Assembly (NCBI RefSeq): GCF_028532485.1
Contig: NZ_CP116942.1
Coordinates: 62,001-126,000 of the forward strand
Direction: 5' to 3'
DNA length: 64,000 nucleotides
DNA from: Iamia majanohamensis
Lineage (GTDB): Bacteria > Actinomycetota > Acidimicrobiia > Acidimicrobiales > Iamiaceae
The notes beneath the pieces were generated by a model that was given only the letters and a program-made list of their open reading frames with translations, had not been told where the DNA came from and did no database searches. Shown here piece by piece: positions 19,748-37,742 of the stretch. Both the position numbers and the translations under genes were made by a program. Numbering within the stretch: the first letter of the stretch is position 1; each line of letters starts with the position of its first letter.

Positions 19748-22700
19748 GGCACTAGCACGGGCACGTAACAGGCAAGCGGGGTCCCCGCGTCTTCATGAGA
19801 TTCGCTCAACTCTGCATCCGTGAGCTCCTCTGTATTGGTGGGATCGGCGGCATCTGCCTTCAACGCAGCGATCAGCTCCGGGAAGTCATAGTTTGGCCCG
19901 AGGAGTAGTTGCCCCTGCGAGATTGCCCAGTTGCCTGACCTCCGATCTTGTTCACTGGCGCCGAGCCGGCCGCCAGCTTCAGCAACGTCAAGAACAGACC
20001 GTGCCTTTCCTTCGCTCGCGTAGAACCCAGTGGCAATCCAGCCTGTGACGTGCCGAGCCATGCCGCGATCGTCGATCCAATCCTTTCGCCACCCGGTATG
20101 ACCGTCGACTGGCCGAGGAGGCGGGACGACCTGAGGTTGCGGGTAGCCCAATGCGTTTGATTCGTAGGAGTACCCGGAGATATCTCTTGCCGCGTCTCTA
20201 AGCGCTCGTCGTGTTGCACATGCCGACAGAGACTCGAAACCATTCTTCACACTTCCAGCGGCTCGACATTCTTGTCGCTTCTGAACCTCGTACCGCCTGA
20301 GTCGACCGACGTACTCGTCGAATGCCGTTCGACCCATCGCTTGATCGTTCGGCCGAAGTCCTGTTGGGTCAGTTTGGTTGATTGGATCGTTGTCGGTGTA
20401 GTGGTATGGGTTGTTGACGGTGGTCGTTCCGTCGACTCCGTCGAGTGGGTCGGGGCTGAGGAATGTGCCGCTGGCGGGGTCGTATTCGCGGTTGCGGAGG
20501 TGGATGAGGGTGCCGGCGTGGAGTTCGCTGCGGTAGCCGTAGTCGATTCCTCCGCTGGCGGGCCCGCCGTTGCCCCAGGGGTCGTAGGTGGTCGCTTGGG
20601 TGGCGTCCGCAGTGGCAGGGGTTTCGAGAGCGGAGCCGTAGATGTCGTGGACGATCCGGCCGGTGCAGTTGGTTCCAGTCGCGCAGTCGACGCGGATGAG
20701 GTCGGGCCCATAGACGGCTGTGGTCTCGTTGGCTTGGCCAACGCTGCCGGTCCAGACCGGCTGAGGTACGTCGAGGGTGGTGTCCCAGACGATGTTCGTC
20801 GTGTCGGTGACGGTGCCGTTGACGGTGGTGGTGAGGCTGCTGAAGCGGCCATCGCCTCGGGTGGCGCGGGCGATCTCGGTGACCCCGGAGGGGCTGGTGG
20901 TGCGTTCTCCGGTGAGGTTCCCGTGGGCGCCCCAGAACCACTGGTGAGCGTTGGCGCCGCCGTTCCAACCTTCCCTCACCCTCCGGCCGGAGTCGTCGTA
21001 CTGGTAGTTGTGGTTGACGCCAGCCACCGTACGGCGGGTCAGCTGCGATGCTGCGTCCCACTGGTAGGTGGTGGTCGTGGTTCCGACGGTGCTGGTGGTG
21101 CGGCGGCCGAGCTCGTCGTACGCGTAGATCTCGTCGTCACCGGTGCTGCGGTCGACCTCGAGCAGCTGTCCCGCGTCGTCGTAGTCATAGGTGGTGGTCA
21201 CCCCGCTGGTGGCTTCGGTGGCGACGCGTCCGGCGTCGTCGTAGGTCACCGCAGTGGTCTTGGTGGGGGTGCCGCCGGCGGCCTCCTCGTAGGTCGAGAC
21301 CAGCCCGGTTGTGGCATCGAGGGTCCAGGTGCGACTGTGGCCGCCGATCTGGTCCTGGTCGATGAGGTTGCCGTCATCGTCATAGACGTTCTCGGCCACA
21401 TCGACCCAGGTGCCGTTGTCGTCTTGTTGCACCTTCGAGAGGTTGCCGTTGGTGTCGTAGACGTTCTTGTACCGGCTGCCATCGGGGTAGGTGATGACGG
21501 TGCGTCGACCGGCTGCATCCCAGGCCCAGGCCAGGTCCTCGCTGCCGGTACCGTCAGCGCCCGTGACCTGGCCGGTCTTGTTGTAGTACCACAGCATCGT
21601 CCCAGAGCTGTCCACCATCTTGGTGCGGCGACCTTCTTCGTCATAGGTGTAGGCCGTCGGTGTCCCGGACGCGTAGGTCACCGACGTGACCTGGCCGGCT
21701 GCGTCGTAGCCGTAGGTCTCGGTCCGCCCAGCCCCGTCGGTGCGCACGTTCAGTCGGCCCAGGCTGTCGTAGGTGTAGCTGGTGGTCCGGTCCAAGGGGT
21801 CGATCTCGGCGGTGACCCGATCGGCGAGGTCGTAGTGCCATTCCCGTTCACCGGTCATGGCATCGACGCGCAGGACGCGGTTGCCGCGGGTGTCGTAGTC
21901 GTAGGTGGTCTCTCGGCCCAGGGGGTCGGTCACCGAGGTCACCCGTCCCATCCCGTCATGATCCCAGGTCACGGTGCCGCCGGTGGCGTCAGTGCGGGTC
22001 GCGAGGTCGCCGCGGGGGCTGTAGGTGTTGGTCGTCAGCCCTGATGCCGGGTCATCGACGGTGAGGACCTGACCGGCGTCGTCGTAGGTGGTGGTGGTGA
22101 CCCGGCCCTCGGGGGAGGTTTCGGTCACCACCCGGCCGTCCGCGTCATAGGAGTAGGTGGTAGTCGCTCCGGAGGGTTGCTCGGTGGTGATCAGCCGGCC
22201 TGCGGTGTCGTAGGAGTAGCTGGTGGTCCGCCCGGTGGCGTCGGTCTCGGAGGCCAGCCGGCCGCCAGGGGTGTAGGTCTGAGTGGTCACACCGCCCCGG
22301 GCGTCGGTGGTGGAGACCCGTCGACCGCTGGTGTCGTAGGCGAAGGTGGTGGACTCGCCGGTGCGGTCGACGGTCTCTTCGACCAGACCGTCGGCGTTGT
22401 AGATGGTGGTGGTGGTGTGGCCGAGGGGGTCGGTCTCTGCGGTGACCCGTCCCCAGTCGTCGTAGGTGGTCTCGGTGAAGTCGCCGTTCTCGTCGGTGAC
22501 CTTGGTGAGGCGGCCCTCGGTGTCATAGGTGTAGCCCGTCTCGACCCCGGTCGGATCGGTGGTCGAGGTGAGCCGGCCGAGGGCTCCGTAGGTGTGGGTT
22601 GTGGTCGCCAGCTCGGCGGGCACCGCCGGGTCGCCGGTCTGTTCGACCACGACGTCCCCCGAGCGGTCCATCTTGGTGATCGAGGACACGCCGGTCGGGT

Positions 22701-22767
22701 CGGTGACGGTGCGAACCTCTGAGATCTCGGGCGCTTCGCTCCACCCGGCGTCGCCGGCCCTCGCCAC
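19741..22767 (-). CDS. RHS/YD-repeat polymorphic toxin, 5'-truncated
   Basis: The frame holds some 25 YD repeats of the form Y(D/S)Y...G(R/N)...T...G, then the RHS core ending with LDGVDGTTTVNNPYHYTDNDP and DPTGL. The last 204 residues (about 805-1008) form a separate, AT-richer tail, the expected toxin domain. RHS proteins encapsulate such tails in a YD-repeat shell and deliver them to neighbouring cells. The open frame extends upstream without a stop to 22875, where an IS3-family end begins, so the true N-terminus with export signals is lost; GTG 22767 is only the first available start. The gene is therefore probably not functional as a delivered toxin, although the tail and immunity gene are intact. 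Confidence 0.85.
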   Translation of the reverse strand: MARAGDAGWSEAPEISEVRTVTDPTGVSSITKMDRSGDVVVEQTGDPAVPAELATTTHTYGALGRLTSTTDPTGVETGYTYDTEGRLTKVTDENGDFTETTYDDWGRVTAETDPLGHTTTTIYNADGLVEETVDRTGESTTFAYDTSGRRVSTTDARGGVTTQTYTPGGRLASETDATGRTTSYSYDTAGRLITTEQPSGATTTYSYDADGRVVTETSPEGRVTTTTYDDAGQVLTVDDPASGLTTNTYSPRGDLATRTDATGGTVTWDHDGMGRVTSVTDPLGRETTYDYDTRGNRVLRVDAMTGEREWHYDLADRVTAEIDPLDRTTSYTYDSLGRLNVRTDGAGRTETYGYDAAGQVTSVTYASGTPTAYTYDEEGRRTKMVDSSGTMLWYYNKTGQVTGADGTGSEDLAWAWDAAGRRTVITYPDGSRYKNVYDTNGNLSKVQQDDNGTWVDVAENVYDDDGNLIDQDQIGGHSRTWTLDATTGLVSTYEEAAGGTPTKTTAVTYDDAGRVATEATSGVTTTYDYDDAGQLLEVDRSTGDDEIYAYDELGRRTTSTVGTTTTTYQWDAASQLTRRTVAGVNHNYQYDDSGRRVREGWNGGANAHQWFWGAHGNLTGERTTSPSGVTEIARATRGDGRFSSLTTTVNGTVTDTTNIVWDTTLDVPQPVWTGSVGQANETTAVYGPDLIRVDCATGTNCTGRIVHDIYGSALETPATADATQATTYDPWGNGGPASGGIDYGYRSELHAGTLIHLRNREYDPASGTFLSPDPLDGVDGTTTVNNPYHYTDNDPINQTDPTGLRPNDQAMGRTAFDEYVGRLRRYEVQKRQECRAAGSVKNGFESLSACATRRALRDAARDISGYSYESNALGYPQPQVVPPPRPVDGHTGWRKDWIDDRGMARHVTGWIATGFYASEGKARSVLDVAEAGGRLGASEQDRRSGNWAISQGQLLLGPNYDFPELIAALKADAADPTNTEELTDAELSESHEDAGTPLACYVPVLVPC

Positions 22768-22899: not shown

Positions 22900-22943
22900 T
22901 CTGATCTGTGGTGCCGCGAGGTGCTGCTGGAAGGATGTTCACC

Positions 22944-23270
22944 ATGCCCAAGCCCTATCCCCGTGAGTTCCGCGAGGACGTGATCCGGGTGGCCCGGGGC
23001 CGCGAGCCGGGGGTCCACCTCAAGGACGTGGCCGCTGACTTCGGGATCTCGGAGTCGTGTCTGAACAACTGGCTCAAGACCGCCGATGTCGAGGACGGCA
23101 TCCGCCCGGGCACGACCGCGGCGGAGAACGAGGACCTGAAGGCGGCCAGGCGTCGGATCAGGTTGCTCGAGCAGGAGAACGAGGTCCTCCGCCGGGCCGC
23201 TGCGTACCTGGGGCAGGCGAACCTCCCAAAAGGGGCTCAACTGACGCTCTCGGGGGTCGCTGAGCGCTGA
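22944..23270 (+). CDS. IS3-family transposase OrfA (C-terminus altered by ISL3 insertion)
   Basis: The product has an HTH_Tnp_1 fold: MPKPYPREFREDVIRVA, DFGISESCLNNWL, then a leucine-zipper-like coiled coil (RRRIRLLEQENEVLRR) used for multimerisation and end binding. ATG 22944 has GGAAGG about 9 nt upstream; ATG 22935 is closer but lacks spacing. In the intact IS, OrfA would end LPKG-stop and a -1 slip on the AAAAG stretch would make OrfAB. The nested ISL3 element entered exactly there, so OrfA now ends with ten foreign residues and the fusion transposase cannot be made. Confidence 0.88.
   Translation: MPKPYPREFREDVIRVARGREPGVHLKDVAADFGISESCLNNWLKTADVEDGIRPGTTAAENEDLKAARRRIRLLEQENEVLRRAAAYLGQANLPKGAQLTLSGVAER
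23227..23234 (+). repeat. ISL3 target site duplication, left copy
   Basis: CCAAAAGG directly precedes the ISL3 left end and recurs directly after its right end at 24629-24636. Eight bp is the normal ISL3-family duplication length. Confidence 0.85.
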
Positions 23271-24628
23271 TCGTGGGGGGCTGGTCCGCGAGCGCACGCC
23301 GCCCTCTCCCTACGTTGCCTGGCTGTCTAGGACAGTCAACGTGGAAGGGACGGCGTGCGCGTCAGCAAGGTACTCAAGGCGATCTGTGGGTTCTCCCGTG
23401 AGGTCGTGGTCATCGGCGTCGGGGTCATCTCCGGGCCCCGTCCGGTGCTGGAGATCCATGTCCGCTCGAAGCTGCGGCGTCGGGGCCGGTGCGGGCGTTG
23501 CGGCCAGCTGGGGTCGTGGTTCGACAACGGGGGCGGGGCCCGCCGGTGGCGCCATGTTGATGCCGGGTTCGCGACCGTGGAGCTGGTGGCCGTGGGCCGC
23601 CGGGTCGACTGCACCGGGTGCGGGCCGACCGTCGCCGCGGTGCCGTGGGCCCGTCACGACTCGGCGTTCACCCGGGCGTTCGAGGACCTGGTGGTCCACG
23701 ACGCCATCGTCGGCAACAAGGCGGCCGCTGCGGTCCGCTACGGCATCAGCTGGCGGGCGGTCAACAACGCCTGTGTCCGCCTGGCCACCGAGGCGCTGGA
23801 TCGGGTCGACCTCCTCGACGGAGTCACCGCGATCGCCATCGACGAGGTCAAGTACAAGAAGGGCCAGCGGTACCTGACCGTCGTCTGCGACCACGCCACC
23901 GGCAAGGTGATCTGGGCGGCCAAAGGCCGCTCCCGGGCCACGGTCGGCCAGTTCTTCGATGCCCTCGGCGACCGCGCTGATGGCCTGGAGTTCGTGACCG
24001 CCGATGGGGCCGCCTGGATCCGTGACGTCGTGGCCGTCCGAGCCCCGAACGCCATCGTCTGCCTGGACACCTTCCACGTCATCGGCTGGGCCATCGACGC
24101 CCTCGACGTGGTCCGCCGCCAGGAATGGAACCGTCTCCGCCAGGCCGGAGCCGCCGGGGCCGCCAAGGAGTTCAAGGGGCTGCGGTTCCTGCTCCGCCGG
24201 AACTGGGAGAACCTCGCGCCCGGTCAACGCGCAGTGATCGATCGCCTCGCTCGAGCCAACCGGCGCACCTTCCGGGCTCACCAGCTCAAGGAGGAGCTGC
24301 GTGACATCTTCGCCCTGCCACCCACCGCCGCCCGCTGGGCGCTCGACCAGTGGCTGGCCTGGGCGTCACGATCGAAGCTCGCCCCCTTCGTCCGCCTCGC
24401 GAGGACGATCCGGACCTACCGGCCCTCCATCGAAGCCACCCTCGAATGGCGGCTCACCAACGGCATCGCCGAGTCCAACAACGCCAGCATCGGCCGCATC
24501 CGCACCAACGCCCGCGGCTTCCACGACCCCCACGCCTTCATCACCATGATCATGCTCGACCGCGCCGGCCTCAACCCCCAGCTCCCCTGGGATCACGCCG
24601 CATGACCCCCGACACCGTCAGTTGTCCC
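23235..24628 (+). mobile_element. ISL3-family insertion sequence
   Basis: A 1394-bp element with imperfect 13-nt ends, GGCTCAACTGACG on the left and GGGACAACTGACG as the inverse of the right, flanked by 8-bp direct repeats CCAAAAGG. It carries one transposase gene reading rightward. Removing the element and one repeat copy restores the IS3 OrfA/OrfB frameshift region seamlessly, which fixes the boundaries. The clean duplication suggests a comparatively recent insertion, later than the IS3 copy. Confidence 0.9.
23355..24605 (+). CDS. ISL3-family transposase
   Basis: The 416-residue protein has an N-terminal zinc-finger region (CGRCGQLG and a later CTGCG), a helix-turn-helix segment around AAVRYGISWRAVNNA, then the DDE-type catalytic core: AIDEVKYKKGQRYLTVV with the first Asp, TADGAAWIRD with the second, and GIAESNNASIGRIRTNARGF around the Glu. 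Length and order are typical for ISL3. Start: GTG at 23355 with GGAAGGG upstream. All catalytic segments are intact, so this copy may still be active. Confidence 0.93.
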   Translation: MRVSKVLKAICGFSREVVVIGVGVISGPRPVLEIHVRSKLRRRGRCGRCGQLGSWFDNGGGARRWRHVDAGFATVELVAVGRRVDCTGCGPTVAAVPWARHDSAFTRAFEDLVVHDAIVGNKAAAAVRYGISWRAVNNACVRLATEALDRVDLLDGVTAIAIDEVKYKKGQRYLTVVCDHATGKVIWAAKGRSRATVGQFFDALGDRADGLEFVTADGAAWIRDVVAVRAPNAIVCLDTFHVIGWAIDALDVVRRQEWNRLRQAGAAGAAKEFKGLRFLLRRNWENLAPGQRAVIDRLARANRRTFRAHQLKEELRDIFALPPTAARWALDQWLAWASRSKLAPFVRLARTIRTYRPSIEATLEWRLTNGIAESNNASIGRIRTNARGFHDPHAFITMIMLDRAGLNPQLPWDHAA

Positions 24629-24636
24629 CCAAAAGG
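24629..24636 (+). repeat. ISL3 target site duplication, right copy
   Basis: Second copy of CCAAAAGG, identical to 23227-23234, immediately after the ISL3 right end. Confidence 0.85.
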
Positions 24637-24639
24637 CTG

Positions 24640-25515
24640 ATGTACCCGCTCGTGCGCGAGCTCGCCGTCGACGGGATCCCTGTCGTGGTGTCGTGTCGGG
24701 TACTTGGTCTTGCTCGCGCCGCCTACTACCGCTGGTTGCTCGCCCCGTTCAGCGACGCCCAGCTCGACGAGGCCTACCTCGCGAACGCGATCTTCGACGC
24801 GCATCGTGACGACCCCGAGTTCGGGTACCGGTTCCTCGCCGATGAGGTCCGCCTCGCCCATCGCGACGTGTCGGATCGGGTGGTGTGGCGGATCTGTCGG
24901 GACAACGCCTGGTGGTCGTGCTTCGGCAAGCCCAAGGCCCGCAAGGGTTCCAAGCCCGGTGCCCCGGCTCACGACGACCTGGTCCGCCGGGACTTCACGG
25001 CCACTGAGCCGAACGAGCTGTGGCTCACCGACATCACCGAGCACCGCACCCGCGAGGGGAAGCTCTACCTCTGCGCCATCAAGGACGTGTTCTCGAACCG
25101 GATCGTCGGCTGGGCCATCGACTCGAAGATGAAGGCCCGACTCGTCGTCGCCGCGGTCGAGATGGCCGTCGCCCGCCGCGACGGTGACGTCGCGGGCTGC
25201 ATCGTCCACTCCGACCGGGGCAGCCAGTTCAGAGCTCGGAAGGTCCATCGGGCGTTGGCCCGCCACGGCCTGGTCGGATCCATGGGCCAGGTCGGCTCCG
25301 CCGGCGACAACGCCGCCATGGAGTCGTTCTTCGCCCTCCTCCAGCGCAACGTGCTGGACCGCCGCACCTGGGCCACCCGCGACGAGCTCCGCGTCGAGAT
25401 GGTCACCTGGATCGAACGCACCTACCACCGCCGCCGACGCCAGGCCCGCCTCGGCCGGTTGACCCCCATCGAGTTCGAGATGATCATGACTCCACAGACG
25501 GCAACCGCCGCCTGA
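24640..25515 (+). CDS. IS3-family transposase OrfB (DDE integrase domain)
   Basis: The product begins MYPLVRELAVDGIPV, has the IS150-type HTH_21 segment (DPEFGYRFLADEV), and the rve DDE core: NELWLTDITEHRTREGKLYL with the first Asp, IVHSDRGSQF with the second and DNAAMESFFALLQR with the Glu. It is normally made as an OrfAB fusion by -1 frameshifting; the inserted ISL3 element separates the two halves. ATG 24640 is only an internal methionine in that sense; there is no good independent ribosome site. Confidence 0.9.
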   Translation: MYPLVRELAVDGIPVVVSCRVLGLARAAYYRWLLAPFSDAQLDEAYLANAIFDAHRDDPEFGYRFLADEVRLAHRDVSDRVVWRICRDNAWWSCFGKPKARKGSKPGAPAHDDLVRRDFTATEPNELWLTDITEHRTREGKLYLCAIKDVFSNRIVGWAIDSKMKARLVVAAVEMAVARRDGDVAGCIVHSDRGSQFRARKVHRALARHGLVGSMGQVGSAGDNAAMESFFALLQRNVLDRRTWATRDELRVEMVTWIERTYHRRRRQARLGRLTPIEFEMIMTPQTATAA

Positions 25516-26657: not shown

Positions 26658-26957
26658 TCACGGCTGCTTCTCCATGGTCGCCCACAGGCCGTGCTCGTGG
26701 AGCCGGAACACGTCGAGCTCGGCCTTCTCCCGGGGCCCGGAGGACACGATGGCCCGGCCCTCGTGGTGGACCTGGAGCATGAGGTGGTCGGCCTTGGCCT
26801 TCGAGTACCCGAACAGCTTGCGGAACACCCAGGCCACGTACTGCATCAGGTTGACCGGGTCGTCCCAGACCACCACCTGCCAGGGCCGATCGACCTCGGC
26901 GTCCTCGTCGGTGGAGGGCTCGAGGACCTCGAGGGGGGCCACCTCCGTCGTCGACAT
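26658..26957 (-). CDS. clpS: ClpS, N-end rule adaptor for Clp protease
   Basis: The 99-residue protein has a disordered N-terminus and the ClpS core: [24 protein letters not shown] (the V-W-D-D-P-V-N strand forms the N-degron pocket), [20 protein letters not shown] and [18 protein letters not shown]. ClpS delivers proteins with destabilising N-termini to ClpAP or ClpCP. ATG 26957 has GGAGG 8 nt upstream; a GTG one codon earlier is possible. It forms a pair with the DUF2017 gene. Confidence 0.93.
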
Positions 26958-26990
26958 CACCCCATCCTCCCAGGCCGGGGCGGCGGGAGG

Positions 26991-28151: not shown

Positions 28152-29174
28152 GTGACCTCGCCGACCACGGGTGCCGCCACCCCCGTCCGCCCGGCGCCCG
28201 GTCGCAGCTCCCTCCTGCGCCGAGGGCCTGTCGCCGGCCACCGCCCGGTCGTCGAGCGCCCCGCCCCCCTGGCCGGCGAGGCCGCGGACCAGGGCGAGCC
28301 GACCCGGTCCAAGGTCGCCGCCTACGTCGCCCTCACCAAGCCCCGCATCATCGAGCTGCTGCTCGTCACCACCGTCCCCACCCAGGTGGTGGCGGCCCGG
28401 GGACTGCCCTCGGGCTGGCTCGTGCTGTGGACGGTCCTGGGCGGCGCCCTGGCCGCGGGTGGGGCCAACACCATCAACATGGTCGTCGACCGCGACATCG
28501 ACCGGCTGATGAAGCGGACGCGTGGCCGGCCCCTCGTCACCGGCGAGATCAGCCCCCGCGCCGCGCTCACCTTCGCCATCGCCCTCGAGGTGGCGTCCTT
28601 CGCCCTCCTGTGGGGCGCGGTGAACCTGCTCTCCGCGGTGCTGGCCGTCTCGGCCACCCTCTTCTACGTCTTCGTGTACACGCTGTGGCTCAAGCGCACG
28701 TCGACCCAGAACATCGTCATCGGCGGGGCCGCCGGCGCCGCCCCCGTGCTCATCGGCTGGTCCTCGGTCACCGGCTCCCTCTCCTGGGCGCCGGTCGTCC
28801 TCTTCGCCGCCATCTTCCTGTGGACCCCGCCCCACTTCTGGTGCCTGGCGGTCCGCTACCGCGACGACTACGCCGCGGCCGACGTGCCCATGCTCCCGGT
28901 GGTGTCGAGCATGCGGGCGGTCACCCTCCGCATCGTCGGCTACACCGCCCTGCTCTGGGCCACCACCCTCCTCTTCGCCCCCGTCGCCGACATGGGCACG
29001 CTCTACCTGGTGGCCGCCATCGTCCTCGGCGGCGCCTACCTGGCCCTCACCATCGACCTCGCCCGCGACCCCGACCCGGGCAAGGCCATGCGCCTGTTCC
29101 ACTGGTCGATCACCTACGTGACGCTCCTGTTCGGGGCCATGGCGCTCGACCAGCTGCTGGTGGGGGCGTCGTGA
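28152..29174 (+). CDS. ctaB: CtaB, protoheme IX farnesyltransferase
   Basis: A 340-residue UbiA-superfamily prenyltransferase. Visible motifs: [42 protein letters not shown] with the first D-rich site (NMxxDxDxD type), [17 protein letters not shown] and [23 protein letters not shown] with the second. It makes heme O from heme B, the step before CtaA. GTG 28152 gives a 60-residue polar N-terminus before the first helix, somewhat long but common in actinobacteria; the large in-frame extension further upstream is shadow. It heads the oxidase gene cluster. Confidence 0.94.
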
Positions 29175-29328: not shown

Positions 29329-30909
29329 ATGACAGCAACCCAAGCACCCCCGGCAGCCCCTGCGCCCGAGGCGACGGCGACCCCCCGCACCACGGCCCCG
29401 GCCACCGGCCTGGCCGGGATCCTCGGCTCCGCCGACCACAAGGTCATCGGCCGCCTCTACCTCGGCGCCGCCATCGCCTTCGGGGCCGGCACGGCCGTCA
29501 CCGGCCTGCTCGGCGGGCTCCAGCGGGTCGACTCCTCGATCCTCGACGGCGACGTCGCCCCCCAGGTCCTCACCTTCCACGTGACCTCGGCGGTGCTGCT
29601 CGCCGTGGCCCCCGCCCTCCTCGGCCTGGCCATGGTCCTCGTGCCCCTCCAGGTCGGGGCCCGGGCCATCGCCTTCCCCCGTGCCGCGGCCGCCTCCTTC
29701 TGGGGCTACCTCGTGGGCGCCGGGCTCACCGTGGCCGCCTACGCCATCAACGGCGGACCCGGCGGCGGGCGCAGCGACGCCGTCGACCTGTGGACCGCGG
29801 CCTGGGCCCTCGTCACCGTGTCGCTCCTCCTCGGGGCGGTCTGCGTGGCGACCACCGCCCTCGCCGTGCGCACCCGCGGCCTCGGCCTCGACCGGGCCCC
29901 GATGTTCACCTGGTCGATGCTGTGCTCCTCGGTGGTGTGGCTCCTCACCCTGCCGGTCCTGGTGGCCGTGCTGATCGTGATGTTCATCGACCACCGGTTC
30001 GCCGAGATCCTCTTCGAGCCGGGGCCCGTGGCCACCTTCGCCCGGGTCTCCTGGGTCGGCCAGCAGCCCCAGGTGTACGTGTTCGCGGTGCCGGTGCTCG
30101 GGATCGCCCTCGACGCCGTGGCCACCGCCACCGGCGCCCGCATGGCCAACCGGGCCGCGGCCCGGGTCGCCATCGGCGCCTTCGCCGTGCTCGGGGTCGG
30201 GTGCTTCGCCCTCACCGCCATCTCGCCCGAGGCGGCCGACCAGCCCGTCACCAAGGGCATGGCCCTGCTCGCCCCCCTCCCGGTCCTCGCCGTGCTCGGC
30301 GTGGCCGCCACGGCCCTGCGGGCGGGGCGCCCCAAGCCCACCAGCGGCCTGGTCGGCGGGGTGGTGGCCCTGCTCGTGCTGCTGCTGGCCACCCTCGTCG
30401 GGGCCGCCACCGCCTTCGAGGGCGCCCTCGAGCTGGCCGGCACCCAGTGGGGCACGGCCCAGTCCCAGCTCACCCTCGTCGCCGTGGTCATCGCCGGGGT
30501 CGCCGGCCTGTACCACTGGTCCACCAAGGTCTTCGGCCGGGTCGCGAGCGAGGGCGCGGGGCGCACCGCCCCCCTGGTGCTCGCCCTCGGGGCCGTGGTG
30601 CTCGCCGTCCCGCAGTGCATCTCGGCCCTCGCCGGTGACGCCGAGGAGAAGGTGGCGGGCATCGAGGGCCTGAACGTGGTCGCCCTCGTCGGTGCCGTCA
30701 TCGTGGTCCTCGGCGGCCTGCTCGCCCTCTCCGGCCTCGTCGGCCGGCGCCCGGCCGACGTGCCCGCCGACCCCTGGGGTGGCCAGACCCTCGAGTGGGC
30801 CACCGCCTCGCCGCCCCCCTTCGGCAACTTCGACGCCGAGGTCCCCGAGGTCACCTCCGCCGAGCCGCTGCTCGCCGCCCCCGCCGACGACGAGGAGGCC
30901 TCCGTCTGA
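29329..30909 (+). CDS. Heme-copper oxidase subunit I paralogue lacking active-site ligands
   Basis: The 526-residue protein is recognisably related to cytochrome c oxidase subunit I: ADHKVIGRLYLGAAIAF, a helix II with one His (LTFH, H84), the conserved LVPLQVGARAIAFPR..A.SFW and, near the end, GLYHWSTKVFGR corresponding to G.YYWWPK.FG. But the CuB/heme a3 site is gone: the usual GHPEVY reads QQPQVY (245-250), no WAHH pair is present, and the HFHY segment before GLYHW is replaced by AQSQL. It has about 12 helices. It probably cannot reduce oxygen; a structural, assembly or regulatory role in the complex is possible. It is the first of eight co-directional genes and overlaps the next by one base. 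Confidence 0.8.
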   Translation: MTATQAPPAAPAPEATATPRTTAPATGLAGILGSADHKVIGRLYLGAAIAFGAGTAVTGLLGGLQRVDSSILDGDVAPQVLTFHVTSAVLLAVAPALLGLAMVLVPLQVGARAIAFPRAAAASFWGYLVGAGLTVAAYAINGGPGGGRSDAVDLWTAAWALVTVSLLLGAVCVATTALAVRTRGLGLDRAPMFTWSMLCSSVVWLLTLPVLVAVLIVMFIDHRFAEILFEPGPVATFARVSWVGQQPQVYVFAVPVLGIALDAVATATGARMANRAAARVAIGAFAVLGVGCFALTAISPEAADQPVTKGMALLAPLPVLAVLGVAATALRAGRPKPTSGLVGGVVALLVLLLATLVGAATAFEGALELAGTQWGTAQSQLTLVAVVIAGVAGLYHWSTKVFGRVASEGAGRTAPLVLALGAVVLAVPQCISALAGDAEEKVAGIEGLNVVALVGAVIVVLGGLLALSGLVGRRPADVPADPWGGQTLEWATASPPPFGNFDAEVPEVTSAEPLLAAPADDEEASV

Positions 30910-31553
30910 TGTCCGCCGCCACCGCCGTGTCCGACGAGGCCCTCGACATGGTCCCGGACGTCGCCGAGCCCGGCGCGACCCGGCCCCGCGTGCTGCTGAT
31001 GGGCACCGCCCTCGTGGCCGCCGCCATCGTCGTGCTCTTCGCCGGGCTGATCGGCCTCTACCTGGCCACCCGCCACGCCGTGATCACCGGGCCCGCCGTC
31101 GACGGCGAGGCCCCGGTGTGGTTCGTCGACGGCACCATCCCCCTCACCCCGGGCACCATGGCCCTCGGCACCATGCTGCTGTCGTGCCTCACCATGTACT
31201 GGGCGGTCGACGCGGTGGGGCGCAACGACCGCCTGAACGCCTACCTGGCCCTGGGCCTCACCCTCTTCTTCGGCGCCGCGGTCATCAACGCCACCTCCTT
31301 CCTCTACACCCAGGCCGGCATCCCGCTCGAGGGCGAGACCAACCCGGCCGGGATGCTCTTCTACGCGGTGACCGGCGCCCACCTGGCCCTGCTGATCGGC
31401 GCCATGGTGTTCGCCGCCCTCATGACCTTCCGGACCCTCGGCGGCGAGTACGCCGGGCGCGACCGCGACGGCATCACCGCCGCCAGCATGATCTGGTACC
31501 TGACCACGGCCATCCTCGGCGTCATCTGGTACGCCGTCTACGTGACCAAGTAG
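30909..31553 (+). CDS. Divergent cytochrome c oxidase subunit III-like protein
   Basis: A 214-residue protein with about five to six helices and the subunit III pattern: PRVLLMGTALVAAAIVVLFAGLIGLYLATR, TPGTMALGTMLLSCLTMYWAV, NPAGMLFYAVTGAHLALLIGA and a C-terminal IWYLTTAILGVIWYAVYV where normal CtaE has WHFVDVVW. The conserved histidines of that last motif are replaced. Its ATG overlaps the stop of the subunit I paralogue, so these two are translated as a pair. The bona fide CtaE lies further down, so this is a second, divergent copy partnering the inactive subunit I. Confidence 0.78.
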   Translation: MSAATAVSDEALDMVPDVAEPGATRPRVLLMGTALVAAAIVVLFAGLIGLYLATRHAVITGPAVDGEAPVWFVDGTIPLTPGTMALGTMLLSCLTMYWAVDAVGRNDRLNAYLALGLTLFFGAAVINATSFLYTQAGIPLEGETNPAGMLFYAVTGAHLALLIGAMVFAALMTFRTLGGEYAGRDRDGITAASMIWYLTTAILGVIWYAVYVTK

Positions 31554-31565
31554 CGAGGGACGCAC

Positions 31566-32411
31566 GTGCTCACCACCGGTTCCAAGTGGTTCTTCGGCCT
31601 CGCCGCGGCCGCGTTCGCCGGGGCCCTCGTCTACGGCGGCGCCACCAACCCGAGCGACGTCGGCATGGACACCTTCACCGGCGTCCTCACCTTCGGCTAC
31701 AAGGGCGGCGTCGGCGACCACCTCGGCTACGCCGTGCTCATGAGCATCGCCGGGGCCAGCCTGTTCCTCGGCGCCACCACCGCCGCGTTCCGCGACGCCT
31801 CGGTCGAGGCCGAGGCCCAGCTGCTCGAGCGGGAGACCGTCCCCGAGGTCCTCGCCCCCGCCCACGGCAGCTACTGGCCGGTCATCGGCGCCTTCGGCGC
31901 CGGCTGCCTGGTCGTCGGGCTGGTCACCACCTCGCTGCTCGTCATCCTCGGCTTCCTCGTGCTCGGCGCGGTCGTGTTCGAGTGGGGCATCTCGGCCTGG
32001 GCCGAGAAGGCCACCGGCGACGACGCGGTCAACCGCTCCATCCGCCGCCGGGTGATGATGCCCGTCGAGGTGCCGGTGCTCGGCGCCCTCGGCATCGCGG
32101 TGTTCGTCCTGGCCGTGTCGCGGATGCTCCTGGCGCTGCCCAAGCTCGGCGTCTACCTCCTCTTCGGCCTGGTGCCCCTCGCCGTGCTGATCGTCGCCTT
32201 CGCCCTTTCCGCCCGACCCCGGATCAACCGGTCGCTCGTGGCCGGGCTCTGCATCGTCGGCGGCGTGGCGGTCCTCGCCGGGGGCGTGGTCAGCACCGCG
32301 GTCGGCCCGCGCGAGATCGAGGAGCACCACGAGGAGGAGGAGAGCGAAGGTGCACCCCTCCTCGCTCCCGACGCCCCCGTCACCGCCACGGCCCCGGGGA
32401 CCACCCGATGA
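31566..32411 (+). CDS. Polytopic membrane protein in the oxidase cluster
   Basis: A 281-residue protein with about seven hydrophobic helices. The N-terminal TTGSKWFFGLAAAAFAGALVYGGAT and the central SYWPVIGAFGAGCLVVGLV resemble actinobacterial cytochrome oxidase subunit IV-type segments, so it may be an accessory subunit. It ends in an acidic, histidine-containing tail (EEHHEEEESEG). GTG start at 31566 with a GAGGGA site 8 nt upstream; its stop lies 35 nt before ctaC. I cannot place it in a named family with certainty. Confidence 0.65.
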   Translation: MLTTGSKWFFGLAAAAFAGALVYGGATNPSDVGMDTFTGVLTFGYKGGVGDHLGYAVLMSIAGASLFLGATTAAFRDASVEAEAQLLERETVPEVLAPAHGSYWPVIGAFGAGCLVVGLVTTSLLVILGFLVLGAVVFEWGISAWAEKATGDDAVNRSIRRRVMMPVEVPVLGALGIAVFVLAVSRMLLALPKLGVYLLFGLVPLAVLIVAFALSARPRINRSLVAGLCIVGGVAVLAGGVVSTAVGPREIEEHHEEEESEGAPLLAPDAPVTATAPGTTR

Positions 32412-32446: not shown

Positions 32447-33670
32447 ATGTCCCTCCTCCGTCGGGTCCGCACCGTGGCCCCCGCCGTGGGCGCTGCGCTG
32501 CTGATCACCGCCTGCGCCTCCGACGCTCCTCAGGACACCCTGAAGCCCGAGGGCACCTACGCCCGGACGATCGACAACCTGATCGACCCCGTCTTTGCCA
32601 TCGCTGGGGTGGTGTTCGTCGTCGTCCTCGGCGGCGCGGTGTTCATCGCCTTCCGGTTCCGGGCCCGCGACGACGAGCACTTCGACGACATGCCGGCCCA
32701 GGTCCACGGCAACAACACCCTGGAGATCGGGTGGACGATCCTGCCTGCCATCGTCCTCCTGGTGGTCGGCGTGTTCAGCGTCATCGCCATCTTCGACCTC
32801 AACGAGGAGCCGCCCGAGGACTCGGTGAAGGTCCAGGTGGTCGGCCAGCAGTGGTGGTGGGAGTACCGCTACGACCTCGATGACGACGGCGTCTACGACG
32901 AGATCGTCACCGCCAACGACCTCGTCATCCCGGCGGGCGAGAAGGTCGCCCTCGAGATCACCGCCCGCGATGTCATCCACTCCTTCTGGGCGCCCCGCCT
33001 CAACGGCAAGCGGGACGCGGTGCCCAACCGGCGCCACCCCTGGAACATCCAGGCCGACGAGCCCGGCGAGTACGTCGGCCAGTGCACCGAGTTCTGCGGC
33101 CTCTCCCACGCCGAGATGCGTCTCAAGGTCATCGCCCTGCCCCGCGACGAGTACGACACCTGGGTGGAGGAGCAGCAGGTCGACGCCGAGCCCTACGCCG
33201 AGGACGACACGTCCCAGGAGGCCGAGGGCTACCGGGTCTTCACCGGCCAGCTCTGCGCCAGCTGCCACCTCATCGAGGGCGTCAACGACGAGAACTTCGA
33301 CGACTCCGTGGTGCCCGAGTTCAACCGCGACATCAACGGAGGGCCCGGGACGATCCTCGACCCCGAGCTGCAGGCCAGCCGGCATGCGCCGAACCTCACG
33401 CACCTCATGAGCCGCACCACCTTCGCCGGGGCCAAGTTCGACCTGCGGCGCGACACCGAGGAGTGCGAGGCGCTGGGTGTCGACTGGGCGGACACCGAGG
33501 AAGGCGTCGACCGGTGCCTCGACCGCGGCGCCCTCGAGGCATGGCTGCGCAACCCGCCGGCCGAGAAGGCGATGGACGCCGACGGAGACCCCATCCGCGG
33601 CATGCCCAACCTGAACCTGTCCGAGGAACAGATCGACCAGCTGGTCGCCTACCTGACGACGCTCAAGTAG
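32447..33670 (+). CDS. ctaC: CtaC, cytochrome c oxidase subunit II with heme c domain
   Basis: A lipoprotein signal (LLITAC, Cys23) precedes two membrane helices and the cupredoxin domain with QWWWEYRY, DVIHSFWAP and the CuA site GQCTEFCGLSHAEM. A C-terminal class I cytochrome c domain has CASCH at 270-274 and the distal methionine probably in IRGMPNL. This is the caa3-type arrangement, in which subunit II receives electrons through its own heme c. ATG 32447 has AGGAG 7 nt upstream and leads straight into the lipobox; ATG 32408 overlapping the previous stop would add 13 residues. Confidence 0.95.
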   Translation: MSLLRRVRTVAPAVGAALLITACASDAPQDTLKPEGTYARTIDNLIDPVFAIAGVVFVVVLGGAVFIAFRFRARDDEHFDDMPAQVHGNNTLEIGWTILPAIVLLVVGVFSVIAIFDLNEEPPEDSVKVQVVGQQWWWEYRYDLDDDGVYDEIVTANDLVIPAGEKVALEITARDVIHSFWAPRLNGKRDAVPNRRHPWNIQADEPGEYVGQCTEFCGLSHAEMRLKVIALPRDEYDTWVEEQQVDAEPYAEDDTSQEAEGYRVFTGQLCASCHLIEGVNDENFDDSVVPEFNRDINGGPGTILDPELQASRHAPNLTHLMSRTTFAGAKFDLRRDTEECEALGVDWADTEEGVDRCLDRGALEAWLRNPPAEKAMDADGDPIRGMPNLNLSEEQIDQLVAYLTTLK

Positions 33671-33683
33671 GTCGGAGGCCCCC

Positions 33684-35684
33684 ATGACCACCACCACCGG
33701 ACCCCTCGCCCTCCCCTCCGGGGAGGAGCCCGGGCACAACCCGCTCGGCGTGTTCGCCCGGCCCCGCGCCGCCAAGGGCTGGCGCAGCTGGGTCAGCACC
33801 GTCGACCACAAGCGCATCGCCATCATGTACGGCGCCGCGTCAGTGGTCTTCTTCTTCATCGGCGGGGTCGAGGCCCTTCTCATCCGGGTCCAGCTGGGCA
33901 CGCCGAACGGCACCGTGCTGTCAGCCGACGCCTACAACCAGGTGTACACGATGCACGGGACGACCATGATCTTCCTGGTCGTCATGCCCCTCGGCGCCGC
34001 GTTCATGAACTACCTGATCCCGTTGCAGATCGGGGCCCGCGACGTCGCCTTCCCCCGTCTCAACGCGCTCAGCTTCTGGACCTTCCTCGGCGGCGGCATC
34101 CTGCTCAACTCGTCGTGGCTCCTGGGCGGTGGTGCCGACGGCGGCTGGTTCAACTACGCCCCCAACAACGGTGTGGTCTACTCGCCATCCCACGGCATCG
34201 ACTTCTGGACGATCGGTCTCCTCATCACGGGCATCGCCTCGCTGGTCGGCGCCATCAACCTGATCGTGACCTGCCTCAACCTGCGGGCGCCGGGCATGAC
34301 CCTGTTCCGCATGCCGGTCTTCACCTGGATGAGCCTGGTCACGCAGTTCCTGCTGCTGTTCGCCGTCCCCGTCATCACTGCGGCGCAGTTCCTGCTGCTG
34401 TTCGACCGGCTCTTCGGGGCCCGCTTCTTCGACGTGAGCGCCGGCGCCGACCCGCTGCTCTGGCAACACCTGTTCTGGATCTTCGGCCACCCGGAGGTCT
34501 ACATCATGATCCTCCCGGCCTTCGGCATCATCTCCGAGATCATCCCGGTGTTCAGCCGCAAGCCCCTGTTCGGCTACCCCTTCATGGTCTTCTCGGGCAT
34601 TGCCATCGGCTTCATGGGCTGGGGTGTGTGGGCCCACCACATGTTCACCTCGGGCATCGGGCCTCTGTCGGTGGCCGCCTTCTCGATCTCGACCATGTTC
34701 ATCGCCGTGCCCACCGGCGTGAAGATCTTCAACTGGCTGGCCACCATGTGGGGTGGGCGCCTGAAGTTCGAGTCGCCGCTCCTGTACTCCATCGGGCTCG
34801 TCACCATGTTCACCATCGGAGGCCTGTCCGGCGTCACCCACGCCGTGGCCGCGTCGGACACCCAGCAGACCGACACCTACTACATCGTCGCCCACTTCCA
34901 CTACGTGCTGTTCGGAGGGGCCATCTTCGGCTTCATCGGAGGGATGTACTTCTGGTGGCCGAAGGTGTTCGGCCATCGCCTGAACGACCGGGTCGGCAAG
35001 GTGAACTTCTGGATCCTGCTCATCGGCTTCAACCTCACCTTCGGACCCATGCACATCCTGGGCCTCCAGGGCATGCCCCGCCGGACCTACACCTACCGGG
35101 ACGGCTACGGGTTCAACTTCTGGAACTTCATGAGCACCGTCGGCGCCTTCATCATCGCCGTGTCGTTCCTCGTGTTCGCGTGGAACATCTACCGCTCGTG
35201 GCGGGCCCACAAGAAGGCCGGCAGCCTGGCGATGGCGGCCGACCCGTGGGACGCCCGCTCCCTCGAGTGGACCATCCAGAGCCCGACCCCGGCCCACAAC
35301 TTCGACGTGACGCCGACGGTCCACCGCCTCGACGACTTCTGGCACCGCAAGTACCGGGAGAACGCCCAGGGCAAGCTCGTCCGCATCGCCACCTCCGAGG
35401 AGCTGGTCCAGCCCGGCAACCCCGAGGGCGTCCACCTGCCGTCGCCGTCGTACTGGCCGCTGGTGATCTCGGTGGGCCTGCCCTTCGTGGGCTGGGGCCT
35501 CATCTTCAACCTGTGGCTCTGCGCCGTCGGCGGCCTGCTGATCCTGGCCGGCATCTACGGCTGGGTGCTCGAGCCGGCCACCGATCCGGGCGAGGACCAC
35601 GGGCCCGACGACCACGCTCCCGAGGAGCCCACCGACGAGGGCGGCACCGCCGCCGAGCCCGAGGAGGCTGCGCTCGTTGACTGA
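33684..35684 (+). CDS. ctaD: CtaD, cytochrome c oxidase subunit I
   Basis: A 666-residue subunit I with all ligands: YTMHGTTM (low-spin heme His), GHPEVYIMILP (CuB His and cross-linked Tyr), GVWAHHMF (two CuB His) and VAHFHYVLFGG (heme a3 and heme a His). After the usual 12 helices, a C-terminal part from about 590 adds PSPSYWPLVISVGLPFVGWG and a second hydrophobic segment, then an acidic tail; this resembles a fused subunit IV-like hairpin, as known in some actinobacterial CtaD proteins. It reduces oxygen to water and pumps protons. GGAGG lies 6 nt before the ATG. It overlaps the ctaE start. Confidence 0.96.
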   Translation: MTTTTGPLALPSGEEPGHNPLGVFARPRAAKGWRSWVSTVDHKRIAIMYGAASVVFFFIGGVEALLIRVQLGTPNGTVLSADAYNQVYTMHGTTMIFLVVMPLGAAFMNYLIPLQIGARDVAFPRLNALSFWTFLGGGILLNSSWLLGGGADGGWFNYAPNNGVVYSPSHGIDFWTIGLLITGIASLVGAINLIVTCLNLRAPGMTLFRMPVFTWMSLVTQFLLLFAVPVITAAQFLLLFDRLFGARFFDVSAGADPLLWQHLFWIFGHPEVYIMILPAFGIISEIIPVFSRKPLFGYPFMVFSGIAIGFMGWGVWAHHMFTSGIGPLSVAAFSISTMFIAVPTGVKIFNWLATMWGGRLKFESPLLYSIGLVTMFTIGGLSGVTHAVAASDTQQTDTYYIVAHFHYVLFGGAIFGFIGGMYFWWPKVFGHRLNDRVGKVNFWILLIGFNLTFGPMHILGLQGMPRRTYTYRDGYGFNFWNFMSTVGAFIIAVSFLVFAWNIYRSWRAHKKAGSLAMAADPWDARSLEWTIQSPTPAHNFDVTPTVHRLDDFWHRKYRENAQGKLVRIATSEELVQPGNPEGVHLPSPSYWPLVISVGLPFVGWGLIFNLWLCAVGGLLILAGIYGWVLEPATDPGEDHGPDDHAPEEPTDEGGTAAEPEEAALVD

Positions 35685-36372
35685 GACCTACACCACCGAG
35701 GGGGAGCTGGCCGATGCCCGCACCCTCGAGCAGGAGGCGGAACGCTTCCAGGCGGAGCGCGACGTCCACCTGGGCGCCTACCACGAGGGCGAGGACCACG
35801 ACCACACCCTCACCAACACCGGCATGTCGAACGAGAAGCTGGGCATGTGGGTGTTCCTCGGCTCGGAGTGCCTGCTCTTCGGCGGGCTCATCTCCACGTT
35901 CCTGCTCTACAAGACCAACAACCTGGCCGGCGGCCCCGTGCCCCGGGACCTCTACGACATCGAGCTCACCTCGATCTCGTCGTTCGTGCTGCTGATGTCG
36001 TCGCTCACCATGGTGCTCGGCGTCTCCGCCATCCAGCGGGGCGAGGAGGCGCGGATGCGCCTCTGGCTGATCACCACCGCCGTGCTCGGCTCGGTGTTCA
36101 TCTCCGGGCAGGTCTACGAGTTCCAGGTCTTCGTCGAGGAGGGCATGGGCTTCACCACCAACGCGGCCTCGTCGGCCTTCTTCGCCCTCACCGGCTTCCA
36201 CGGCGTCCACGTCACCCTCGGGATCGTGATGCTGCTGTCGGTCGTGGTCCTGTCGGTCGCCGGACGGGTCCCCCGGGCCCGGGCCGAGGCGGTCGAGATC
36301 GTCGGCCTGTACTGGCACTTCGTCGACGTGGTCTGGGTGCTGATCTTCACCATCGTCTACCTGATCCCCTGA
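35677..36372 (+). CDS. ctaE: CtaE, cytochrome c oxidase subunit III
   Basis: The 231-residue protein has a soluble N-terminal about 50 residues with several His and then the subunit III helices: KLGMWVFLGSECLLFGGLIS, SSFVLLMSSLTMVLGV, FFALTGFHGVHVTLGI and the closing LYWHFVDVVWVLIFTIVYLI. These conserved parts contrast with the altered copy at 30909. The start is TTG at 35677, inside the end of ctaD, with GAGGAGG about 9 nt upstream, so translation is coupled to subunit I. Confidence 0.93.
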   Translation: MTETYTTEGELADARTLEQEAERFQAERDVHLGAYHEGEDHDHTLTNTGMSNEKLGMWVFLGSECLLFGGLISTFLLYKTNNLAGGPVPRDLYDIELTSISSFVLLMSSLTMVLGVSAIQRGEEARMRLWLITTAVLGSVFISGQVYEFQVFVEEGMGFTTNAASSAFFALTGFHGVHVTLGIVMLLSVVVLSVAGRVPRARAEAVEIVGLYWHFVDVVWVLIFTIVYLIP

Positions 36373-36382
36373 GAGGTCCGAG

Positions 36383-36721
36383 ATGAGCGACGTCGCCACC
36401 GACCCGAGCGTGTCCGTCGCGGACGCCGAGGGCGAGGTCCACCACGAGCACGCCAGCGACCTGATCTACATCAAGCTGGCCGTGCTGCTGGCGGTGCTGA
36501 CCGCTGCGGAGGTCGCCTGGCCCTACCTCATCGAGGACGGCCCGTTCCTCATGTGGCCGCTCCTGGTCATGATGGTGGTCAAGTTCGTCCTCATCGCCGC
36601 GTACTTCATGCACCTGAAGTTCGACTCCAAGATCCTGACCCGCATCTTCTACTCGGGGCTCCTGCTCGCGGTGAGCGTCTACGTCGTGGCCCTGCTGACC
36701 ATGCACGTGTTCGACGTCTGA
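36383..36721 (+). CDS. ctaF: CtaF, cytochrome c oxidase subunit IV
   Basis: A 112-residue protein with three hydrophobic helices, IYIKLAVLLAVLTAAEV, a central LMWPLLVMMVVKFVLIAAYFMHLKFD and a final helix ending TMHVFDV. The KFVLIAAYFMHLKFD segment is the mark of the prokaryotic cytochrome C oxidase subunit IV family (COX4_pro). It stabilises the oxidase complex. It lies 10 bp after ctaE with a GAGGT-like site before the ATG, in the same operon. Confidence 0.88.
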   Translation: MSDVATDPSVSVADAEGEVHHEHASDLIYIKLAVLLAVLTAAEVAWPYLIEDGPFLMWPLLVMMVVKFVLIAAYFMHLKFDSKILTRIFYSGLLLAVSVYVVALLTMHVFDV

Positions 36722-36737
36722 GCCGACCACCGCGCCC

Positions 36738-37742
36738 GTGACCCCGTCCCCCCTGCTCGCCGCCGTGGAGGCCATCGACGTCTGGCGGTTCCAGATCCAC
36801 CCCGAGGTGTGGCTGCTGGTCGGGAGCCTGGTGGCCCTCTACGTCTACGCGGTGCGGGTGGTCGGCCCGAAGGTGGTCCCCGAGGGTCAGCCGGTGATCA
36901 CCGGTCGCCAGCGGGCCGCGGCCATCGCCGGCATCGTGCTGCTCTGGCTGGCCTCGGACTGGCCCATGCACGACATCGGCGAGGAGTACCTCTACGTCGT
37001 CCACATGGTCCAGCACACGATCCTGACCCTGGTCGTGCCGCCGTTGGCCCTGATCGCCACCCCTCGCTGGCTGGCCGACCTGGTGCTGGGCCAGGGCCGG
37101 GTCCGACGGGTCGTGCGCATCGCCTCGCTGCCGGTGGTCGCGGGCATCGCCTACAACGTCGCCATCATGGGCGGCCACTGGCCCGCCCTGGTCAACGCCT
37201 CGGTGGAGATCGGGCCCCTGCACTACGTCGTCCACGTGGTGCTGGTCGCCACCGCGGTGATGATGTGGATGCCGATCTGCGGGCCCGTCGCCGAGTGGCG
37301 GATCAGCCCCCCCGCGCAGATGGTGTATCTGTTCCTCATGTCGATCGTGCCCACCGTGCCCGGCGGCTGGCTCACCTTCGCCGACAACGCCGTCTACACC
37401 GCCTACGACACCCCTCAGCGGGCCTTCGGCATCAGCGTGGTCGACGACCAGCAGGCCGCCGGCGCGTTCATGAAGATCAGCGCCGGCAGCTGGCTGTGGG
37501 TGATCATCACCGGCATGTTCTTCGTGTGGGCCTTCCGCCACCAGCGCGAGGAGGCCGCGCGCGACCGGGCCCGCCTGGCGCGGGTGCCGGTCCCGGCCGG
37601 CACCGCCCCCGCGCCCGCGGAGGGCGAGGCGGACGGCGACGCGCCGACGAGCAGCGCGCTCACCTACGAGCACGTGGCCCAGGCCTTCGCCGAGACCGAC
37701 CCGCCCCCCGAGCCACCGTCGCCGCCGGCGCCCCCCGGCTGA
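36738..37742 (+). CDS. ctaG: CtaG-like (caa3_CtaG) oxidase assembly protein
   Basis: The 334-residue membrane protein has seven helices and the caa3_CtaG pattern: FQIHPEVWLLV, SDWPMHDIGEEYLYVVHMVQHTILTLVVPPL, HYVVHVVLVATAVMMWMPI and MVYLFLMSIVPTVPGGWLTF with IWGL-type partners. This family helps insert copper into caa3 oxidases. The C-terminal about 70 residues are disordered and proline-rich. The GTG at 36738 follows ctaF by 16 bp, consistent with a shared transcript. Confidence 0.87.
   Translation: MTPSPLLAAVEAIDVWRFQIHPEVWLLVGSLVALYVYAVRVVGPKVVPEGQPVITGRQRAAAIAGIVLLWLASDWPMHDIGEEYLYVVHMVQHTILTLVVPPLALIATPRWLADLVLGQGRVRRVVRIASLPVVAGIAYNVAIMGGHWPALVNASVEIGPLHYVVHVVLVATAVMMWMPICGPVAEWRISPPAQMVYLFLMSIVPTVPGGWLTFADNAVYTAYDTPQRAFGISVVDDQQAAGAFMKISAGSWLWVIITGMFFVWAFRHQREEAARDRARLARVPVPAGTAPAPAEGEADGDAPTSSALTYEHVAQAFAETDPPPEPPSPPAPPG

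Follow-up and report, generated by a model that had tools for sequence, protein, structure and literature searches.

A cytochrome oxidase subunit I paralogue without an oxygen-reduction site in the caa3 oxidase locus of Iamia majanohamensis and its relatives

Introduction

Aerobic respiration has subunit I as its defining catalytic subunit. In the stretch of DNA analyzed here (the window, 64,000 nucleotides from Iamia majanohamensis), a gene for a subunit I paralogue whose oxygen-reduction site has been dismantled stands in the same cluster as an intact oxidase. What is such a gene kept for? A first-pass annotation of the window read it as a pseudo-enzyme retained beside a working oxidase, perhaps as a structural or assembly partner, perhaps as a heme-b-only electron carrier. 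We found no description of such a paralogue in the open-access (PMC) literature that we searched. From the sequence comparisons reported below, a structural or assembly role appears plausible.

Results

The oxidase locus

The paralogue, which we designate CtaD', opens a trio of genes (CtaD', CtaE' and X) that is flanked by ctaB on one side and by an intact ctaC-ctaD-ctaE operon on the other (Table 1). The stop codon of CtaD' overlaps the ATG of CtaE' (TGATG), and CtaD' forms one module with this CtaE-like gene and X. In the alignment, all ligand motifs are found in the product of the window's ctaD. This intact gene had been placed directly downstream of the paralogue; its start actually lies 2.8 kb away, at 33684, with CtaE', X and ctaC intervening. 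The ctaA gene occupies the matching position in many relatives' loci.

Judged by eye, the neighborhood also contains a large YD/RHS-repeat protein (19741-22767, minus strand), transposase-like ORFs (22908-23270 and 23355-25515; IS3-like, ISL3-like) that precede the oxidase cluster and, adjoining ctaA, a small ClpS-adaptor-like ORF (26658-26960, minus strand). Elsewhere in the same genome, a second, ordinary CtaC-CtaD pair is encoded at about 326 kb, close to a cytochrome b gene at 330 kb, and another cytochrome b lies near 4168 kb.

Table 1. Genes and motifs of the oxidase locus, in window coordinates
Feature	Position	Strand	Description and evidence
ctaA	26991..27974	-	COX15/CtaA heme A synthase, divergent neighbor; Pfam COX15-CtaA 82.9 bits
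ctaB	28275..29174	+	UbiA-family heme O synthase, the gene immediately before CtaD'; Pfam UbiA 222.3 bits
CtaD' (psI)	29329..30909	+	Subunit I paralogue without oxygen-reduction site; COX1 161.6 bits
His84 codon	29578..29580	+	Surviving helix-II low-spin heme His position; alignment, residue list
QQPQVY in place of GHPEVY, helix VI	30061..30078 (residues 245-250)	+	Sequence, alignment
Helix X segment TAQSQLTLV in place of VAHFHYV	30454..30480	+	CAG at 30466
CtaD' cytoplasmic C-tail (DPWGGQTLEW...NF)	30766..30870	+	Conservation 0.64 in the members without the heme pair; cytoplasmic by the usual subunit I topology
CtaE' (psIII)	30909..31553	+	Subunit III paralogue
X	31566..32411	+	CtaF-like four-helix part fused to three-helix membrane part (Y-like)
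Y-like part of X	32019..32303	+	Without copper domain in the window copy
ctaC	32447..33670	+	Has the CuA motif (C-x3-C-x3-H-x2-M) plus a fused cytochrome c domain (CASCH); start codon tentative
ctaD, intact, with CtaF-like C-terminal extension	33684..35684	+	COX1 528.8 bits, Cyt_c_ox_IV 31.3 bits
ctaE	35677..36372	+	COX3 72.8 bits
cox4	36383..36721	+	COX4_pro 40.1 bits
ctaG	36738..37742	+	Caa3_CtaG 122.6 bits

Fold and ligand positions of CtaD'

The identification of the gene as a subunit I paralogue is confirmed. The ORF is intact, begins with ATG and encodes 526 aa, and in the profile comparison with subunit I families its product matches Pfam COX1 (PF00115) at 161.6 bits, against a cut-off of 34.8, over positions 2-436 of 436. 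A sequence search of the PDB with CtaD' returned 41 distinct sequences at E ≤ 1. The AlphaFold model has a pLDDT of 91.2 and a pTM of 0.93; Foldseek aligns CtaD' with subunit I of the mycobacterial aa3 oxidase at a TM of 0.84 (E 8.1e-20), and VIA aligns it with bo3 subunit I at a Z of 40.9 and an rmsd of 2.5 over 487 residues. CtaD' is a subunit I of the heme-copper oxidase superfamily, homologous over the whole domain. Its score of 186.7 bits against the CtaD equivalog NCBIfam TIGR02891 lies below the curated cut-off of 670.75.

The motif changes noticed at first reading are borne out by the alignment: GHPEVY reads QQPQVY, as the sequence itself shows, and the HH pair of the CuB site and the HFHY segment are gone, with PLQVGARAIAFPR retained together with the late FGR landmark and a single histidine of helix II (His84). 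The three CuB histidine positions in helices VI and VII are occupied by Gln, Leu and Thr, and the axial histidine position of heme a3 in helix X by Gln. The bis-His pair of the low-spin heme is incomplete, with His84 kept and its helix-X partner replaced by Gln. In addition, the D-channel entry Asp has become Ala and the K-channel Lys has become Val. An alternative alignment that restores the ligands is ruled out: because CtaD' has only four histidines in total (37, 84, 222 and 396), no alignment can supply the six that serve as metal and heme ligands. The window's CtaD' is without the catalytic features of a heme-copper oxygen reductase.

The loss of the helix-X histidine looks recent. A relative from the same genus (locus L204, genome G856), in which the low-spin heme pair is still complete, has TAQSHLTLV with a CAC codon, versus TAQSQLTLV with CAG at 30466 in the window. 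A sequencing error at that single base is possible, although the window's genome is one contig of 4.58 Mb.

Sampling, tree and gene order

A scan of genome contigs yielded 30 loci, ordinary oxidases among them, and a class-level search covered 395 genomes, from whose further matches a chosen part was fetched; part of the added loci was chosen by their X matches. In one round, CtaD' was called from ORFs of at least 400 aa that scored at most 350 bits to CtaD. We dropped the copies of the window gene (L003, L006 and L037), L074 and L077 (contigs of L010 and L013), L215 (the same as L021), two fragments of CtaD from L186 and one from L208, and L201 because of its shortness. CtaD' is not complete in L191 or L022, the full copy of L022 being in L119, and four of the fetched candidates (L116, L117, L122 and L126) are ordinary oxidases. 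The final set has 106 CtaD' sequences, of which 104 can be scored, the helix-II column being absent from L021 and L219. The named loci are Acidimicrobiales, Acidimicrobiia or Actinomycetota MAGs.

In both the 68-row and the 104-row trees, CtaD' forms a single clade beside CtaD with an SH-aLRT of 100. The earliest branches agree between the CtaD' and CtaD parts of the 68-row tree, the CtaD part being unresolved at its base; vertical descent fits this, the branches being longer in CtaD'. An origin from another oxidase type is not favored, the clade standing apart from all others in the 68-row tree, but the branches that would connect it with any one subunit I family are weak.

Gene order is as expected in 102 of the 104 loci scored (L020 and L218 are out of order); two of the 106 rows were not recognized by the scoring rule. 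The neighbors of CtaD' include CtaE' in 104 loci, X in 103, a same-strand ctaB in 102 and ctaC in 101. At ten loci outside the order (L169-L172, L177, L178 and L180-L183), CtaD' is absent from the stretch fetched; seven of them (L169, L171, L178 and L180-L183) have ctaC-ctaD-ctaE-cox4-ctaG there. By eye, metal ABC transporter-like and sialidase-like secreted genes lie between X and ctaC in L020 (11400-16095) and L119 (5360-10050), an insert that belongs to one early-branching group.

Stepwise loss of ligands

Not one of the 104 scorable CtaD' sequences, the window's included, has two or three CuB histidines, a loss too consistent for chance; a single one is left at the helix VI position in five and at the two helix-VII positions in one and two. 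The heme a3 histidine is kept in 13, the helix-II histidine in 41 and the second helix-X histidine in 33, and the complete low-spin heme pair is kept in 27 and absent in 77. In contrast, 72 of the 74 rows labeled ctaD have all six histidines; of the other two, one is partial and the second, L023, is without a helix-X histidine and represents another oxidase type. The low-spin pair is present in 7/7 and 10/14 members of the two earliest CtaD' branches, and the a3 histidine in 7/14 of the second. Parsimony on the best tree gives 8 changes of the low-spin pair, and an irreversible-loss model gives 15 losses. Because this last heme site changes repeatedly while the gene persists, we infer that the role under selection is not redox in most CtaD' proteins.

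CtaE' and X

CtaE' scores close to the Pfam COX3 cut-off of 23.8 bits (24.1 in one search, 23.1 in another) and reaches 31.7 bits against NCBIfam aa3_CtaE_Actin, whose cut-off is 190. X of the window has seven long helices. A profile of 69 X sequences found the actinobacterial COX polypeptide 4 (CtaF, 7q21_F) in the PDB at E 7.6e-5, and Pfam Cyt_c_ox_IV is matched at E ≤ 0.1 in 12 of the 69 members, the window's X not among them. Foldseek returned nothing for X at E < 0.001, with CtaF as the best match at E 0.14. In VIA, X aligns with CtaF at an rmsd of 6.1 over 81 residues and a Z of 7.3, a value within the chance range of helical proteins; likewise, the overlay of X residues 100 to ~157 on residues 12-71 of bovine subunit III has a Z of ~6, in the chance range for such proteins. 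In Mycobacterium smegmatis, CtaE and CtaF jointly form the equivalent of subunit III and mediate III-IV contacts (PMC8361435). With a weakly CtaE-like CtaE' and a putatively CtaF-like X, the trio reads as a subunit I plus a complete subunit III.

The C-terminal, Y-like half of X is homologous to a separate membrane-anchored blue-copper protein of other caa3 operons in the phylum, where it is encoded by its own gene after ctaG (L146-L156, L171, L178 and L180-L183). Both of the separate proteins tested (L146 and L148) give a copper-domain match, and a protein of this kind is a possible electron donor to the oxidase. In most early-branching members of the family, X itself ends in a domain with the blue-copper pattern (7/7 and 11/14 members of the first two branches), and Pfam Cupredoxin_1 is matched in X of L020 and L088. 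Overall, the pattern is found in 19 of the 103 members with both genes, and the Pfam domain in 7/69. The window's X ends shortly after its last helix, with neither a cupredoxin domain nor the H...C..H..M copper pattern. A second group of X proteins (about 367-384 aa) carries a C-terminal extension without the pattern; in the one representative tested, L101, no Pfam cupredoxin was found. Among the 103 members, the heme pair in CtaD' and the copper pattern in X occur together in 17, the heme pair only in 10, the copper pattern only in 2 and neither in 74. By independent pairs this association is not significant, with only four copper changes on the tree.

Co-occurrence with the caa3 oxidase

Co-occurrence was scored in 198 genomes of the order, with X, which served as the marker for the trio, called at E ≤ 1e-20 and caa3-type CtaD at ≥62% identity to the window's; the other CtaD matches listed have ≤53% identity, and the number of CtaD-positive genomes is a lower bound, as short pieces are missed. 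Among the matches listed, 123 genomes have both X and caa3-type CtaD, 10 only X, 2 only CtaD (G765 and G851) and 63 neither (Fisher p 3e-38, a value that ignores shared ancestry). X is present in 123 of 125 CtaD-positive genomes and absent from 63 of 73 CtaD-negative ones among these matches, in agreement with the earlier idea of a pseudo-enzyme kept with the oxidase. In five of the ten X-only genomes (L094, L184, L186, L189 and L209), the trio has an incomplete CtaD next to it, truncated where the contig ends or broken into two reading frames. In one assembly, G772, CtaD (L186 1641-3820) is split over two frames by a sequencing error or a real break. At 14 loci from X-less members of the order, one in each of 12 of the 65 X-less genomes and two in order genomes outside the sample, the other, aa3-type oxidase is the sole one present; the window's genome carries this second oxidase as well. 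Rate covariation was uninformative, the partial correlation of CtaD' being 0.69 with CtaD, 0.63 with CtaE' and 0.70 with X.

Constraint is distributed differently in CtaD' and CtaD. In the 77 CtaD' sequences without the heme pair, loop conservation averages ~0.61 on the cytoplasmic and 0.41 on the periplasmic side (length-weighted, by hand), versus 0.82 and 0.83 in 62 CtaD sequences; the sides are assigned by the usual subunit I topology, which we take to hold for CtaD'. With the cytoplasmic N terminus (0.44) and linker (0.36) added, the cytoplasmic mean falls to ~0.55 (CtaD 0.74). Conservation in these CtaD' proteins peaks in the II-III loop (0.77), followed by the C-tail (0.64), the IV-V loop (0.63) and the III-IV loop (0.60), the last of which is periplasmic yet well conserved. 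The least conserved are the XI-XII (0.31) and VII-VIII (0.33) loops, and four of the six periplasmic loops fall between 0.31 and 0.41. The periplasmic side of subunit I is where subunit II docks with its CuA. The bias between the faces thus implies that the subunit II side of CtaD' has lost more constraint than the cytoplasmic side.

Selection on CtaD'

Decay into pseudogenes would agree with the progressive loss of ligands and with the pace of CtaD' evolution: its tree distance is 2.59 versus 1.41 for CtaD, about twice as fast, and its dN/dS exceeds that of CtaD in 11 of the 12 pairs with both genes (the exception is L088/L098). However, in line with the purifying selection that the first-pass annotation had proposed to look for, CtaD' has dN/dS < 1 in 16/16 pairs (0.09-0.63 by NG86 without composition correction; two pairs share L009 and two share L020), and its top values come from pairs in which CtaD is also high. 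Furthermore, among the matches listed, the sole CtaD' row with an internal stop (G320) has it at the gene's own end, and the family is a single clade with conserved gene order. A length of ≥480 aa in 104 of 106 CtaD' is weak evidence, since ORFs shorter than 400 or 250 aa were left out. The dN/dS and stop-codon evidence disfavors decay, which we regard as scarcely credible. With the CuB site absent from 104/104 sequences and dN/dS below 1, the description of CtaD' as a pseudo-enzyme beside a working oxidase is supported.

Discussion

We see about an even chance that CtaD', CtaE' and X represent a duplicated complex IV core that has been retained next to the caa3 oxidase as its structural, non-catalytic partner. 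A core made of subunit I and the two-part subunit III (CtaE and CtaF) would have been duplicated, and the copy would then have lost its metal sites stepwise to become a cofactor-free shell. The trio would bind the caa3 enzyme, or dock it to the cytochrome bc complex, with the cytoplasmic and subunit-III sides as putative contact surfaces, and it would serve as a scaffold or as one half of a dimer rather than as a redox carrier. We favor this reading because of the linkage to the oxidase, the complete I plus III composition and the conserved cytoplasmic face, through which the trio probably acts.

The main rival is an assembly or maturation factor that would keep CtaC, CtaE or the factors for cofactor insertion in position during construction of the caa3 enzyme and depart afterwards. 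Co-occurrence and gene order fit such a factor equally well: the trio directly follows ctaB in 102/104 loci, often adjoins ctaA and shares its cluster with ctaG, and X is a near-obligate companion of caa3-type CtaD among the matches listed. An assembly role also makes no demand for a redox site. A whole duplicate of subunits I and III would nevertheless be large for a chaperone, and the seven outside-order loci have caa3 genes without CtaD' in the stretch fetched. We regard assembly as rather unlikely, if the most serious of the alternatives.

Electron exchange between the blue copper of X and the low-spin heme of CtaD', with the window copy a degenerate form, would explain why heme pair and copper pattern occur together in 17/103 members, why both features concentrate in the two branches that diverge first and why the pair survives in the same-genus relative L204. 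The window's CtaD' has the helix-X Gln, though, its X is without the copper domain, and the pair is absent in 77/104; with four copper changes, moreover, independent pairs give no significant link between heme and copper. As a general account, electron transfer is improbable. The heme-b-only carrier envisaged in the first-pass annotation is ruled out for the window's CtaD' by the same Gln but may fit the 27 of 104 sequences with both low-spin histidines, and early-branching relatives may have such a role. Just as improbable is some non-respiratory job (an ion path, a sensor, or lipid or quinone handling) for a CtaD' that is merely cotranscribed with the oxidase. The loss of D- and K-channel residues in the window copy and the diverged periplasmic loops would suit it, but the presence of X in 123/125 genomes with caa3-type CtaD and its absence from 63/73 without, among the matches listed, speak against it, as does the CtaF-like part of X.

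A structural partnership may extend further. We tentatively propose, with more doubt than confidence, that throughout the order a live caa3 unit is paired with a dead, cofactor-free one, which would have passed through a low-spin-heme and blue-copper stage before both cofactors were lost in many lineages because selection acts on the structural role alone. The data suggest that a "dead" oxidase twin can be a lasting partner of the living enzyme in many bacteria of one actinobacterial order. If true, we would have here one of the few documented conversions of a respiratory enzyme into a scaffold, with living intermediates for a series in which CuB, heme a3, the low-spin heme and the copper were lost. 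The structural-partner reading predicts a hetero-dimeric or shell-bearing complex IV, and oxidase counts taken from COX1 matches in Acidimicrobiia metagenomes would be too high.

Comparison with known systems

CtaD' has the same fold from end to end as subunit I of the A-type reductases (mycobacterial aa3, Thermus caa3 and Escherichia coli bo3), and it has the PLQ-G--FPR loop and the DPW-G-TLEW C-tail in common with CtaD. Unlike CtaD, it is without CuB, heme a3, a complete low-spin set and the D- and K-channel residues. CtaE and CtaF are the closest known counterparts of the rest of the trio: CtaE' weakly matches COX3/CtaE models, and for X a profile match links its N-terminal part with CtaF. 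X differs from CtaF in its fusion to three further helices, whose homologue in other groups of the phylum forms part of a distinct blue-copper protein of the membrane.

The Fox cluster of Sulfolobales likewise contains a pair of subunit I paralogues (FoxA and FoxA'). The excerpted text of PMC10654088 makes no mention of ligand loss in the Fox subunit I-like genes. A functional analogy may be drawn with cytochrome bd, in which CydB is a duplicated partner of CydA, the two form a pseudo-twofold pair and all three hemes lie in CydA (PMC8324918, PMC6853902). The CtaD' trio beside the caa3 oxidase would resemble the heme-free CydB beside CydA in function only, as the families are unrelated. Unlike the pairing of CydB, that of CtaD' is a proposal drawn from genomic linkage, and its gradual loss of cofactor sites is still visible among living relatives.
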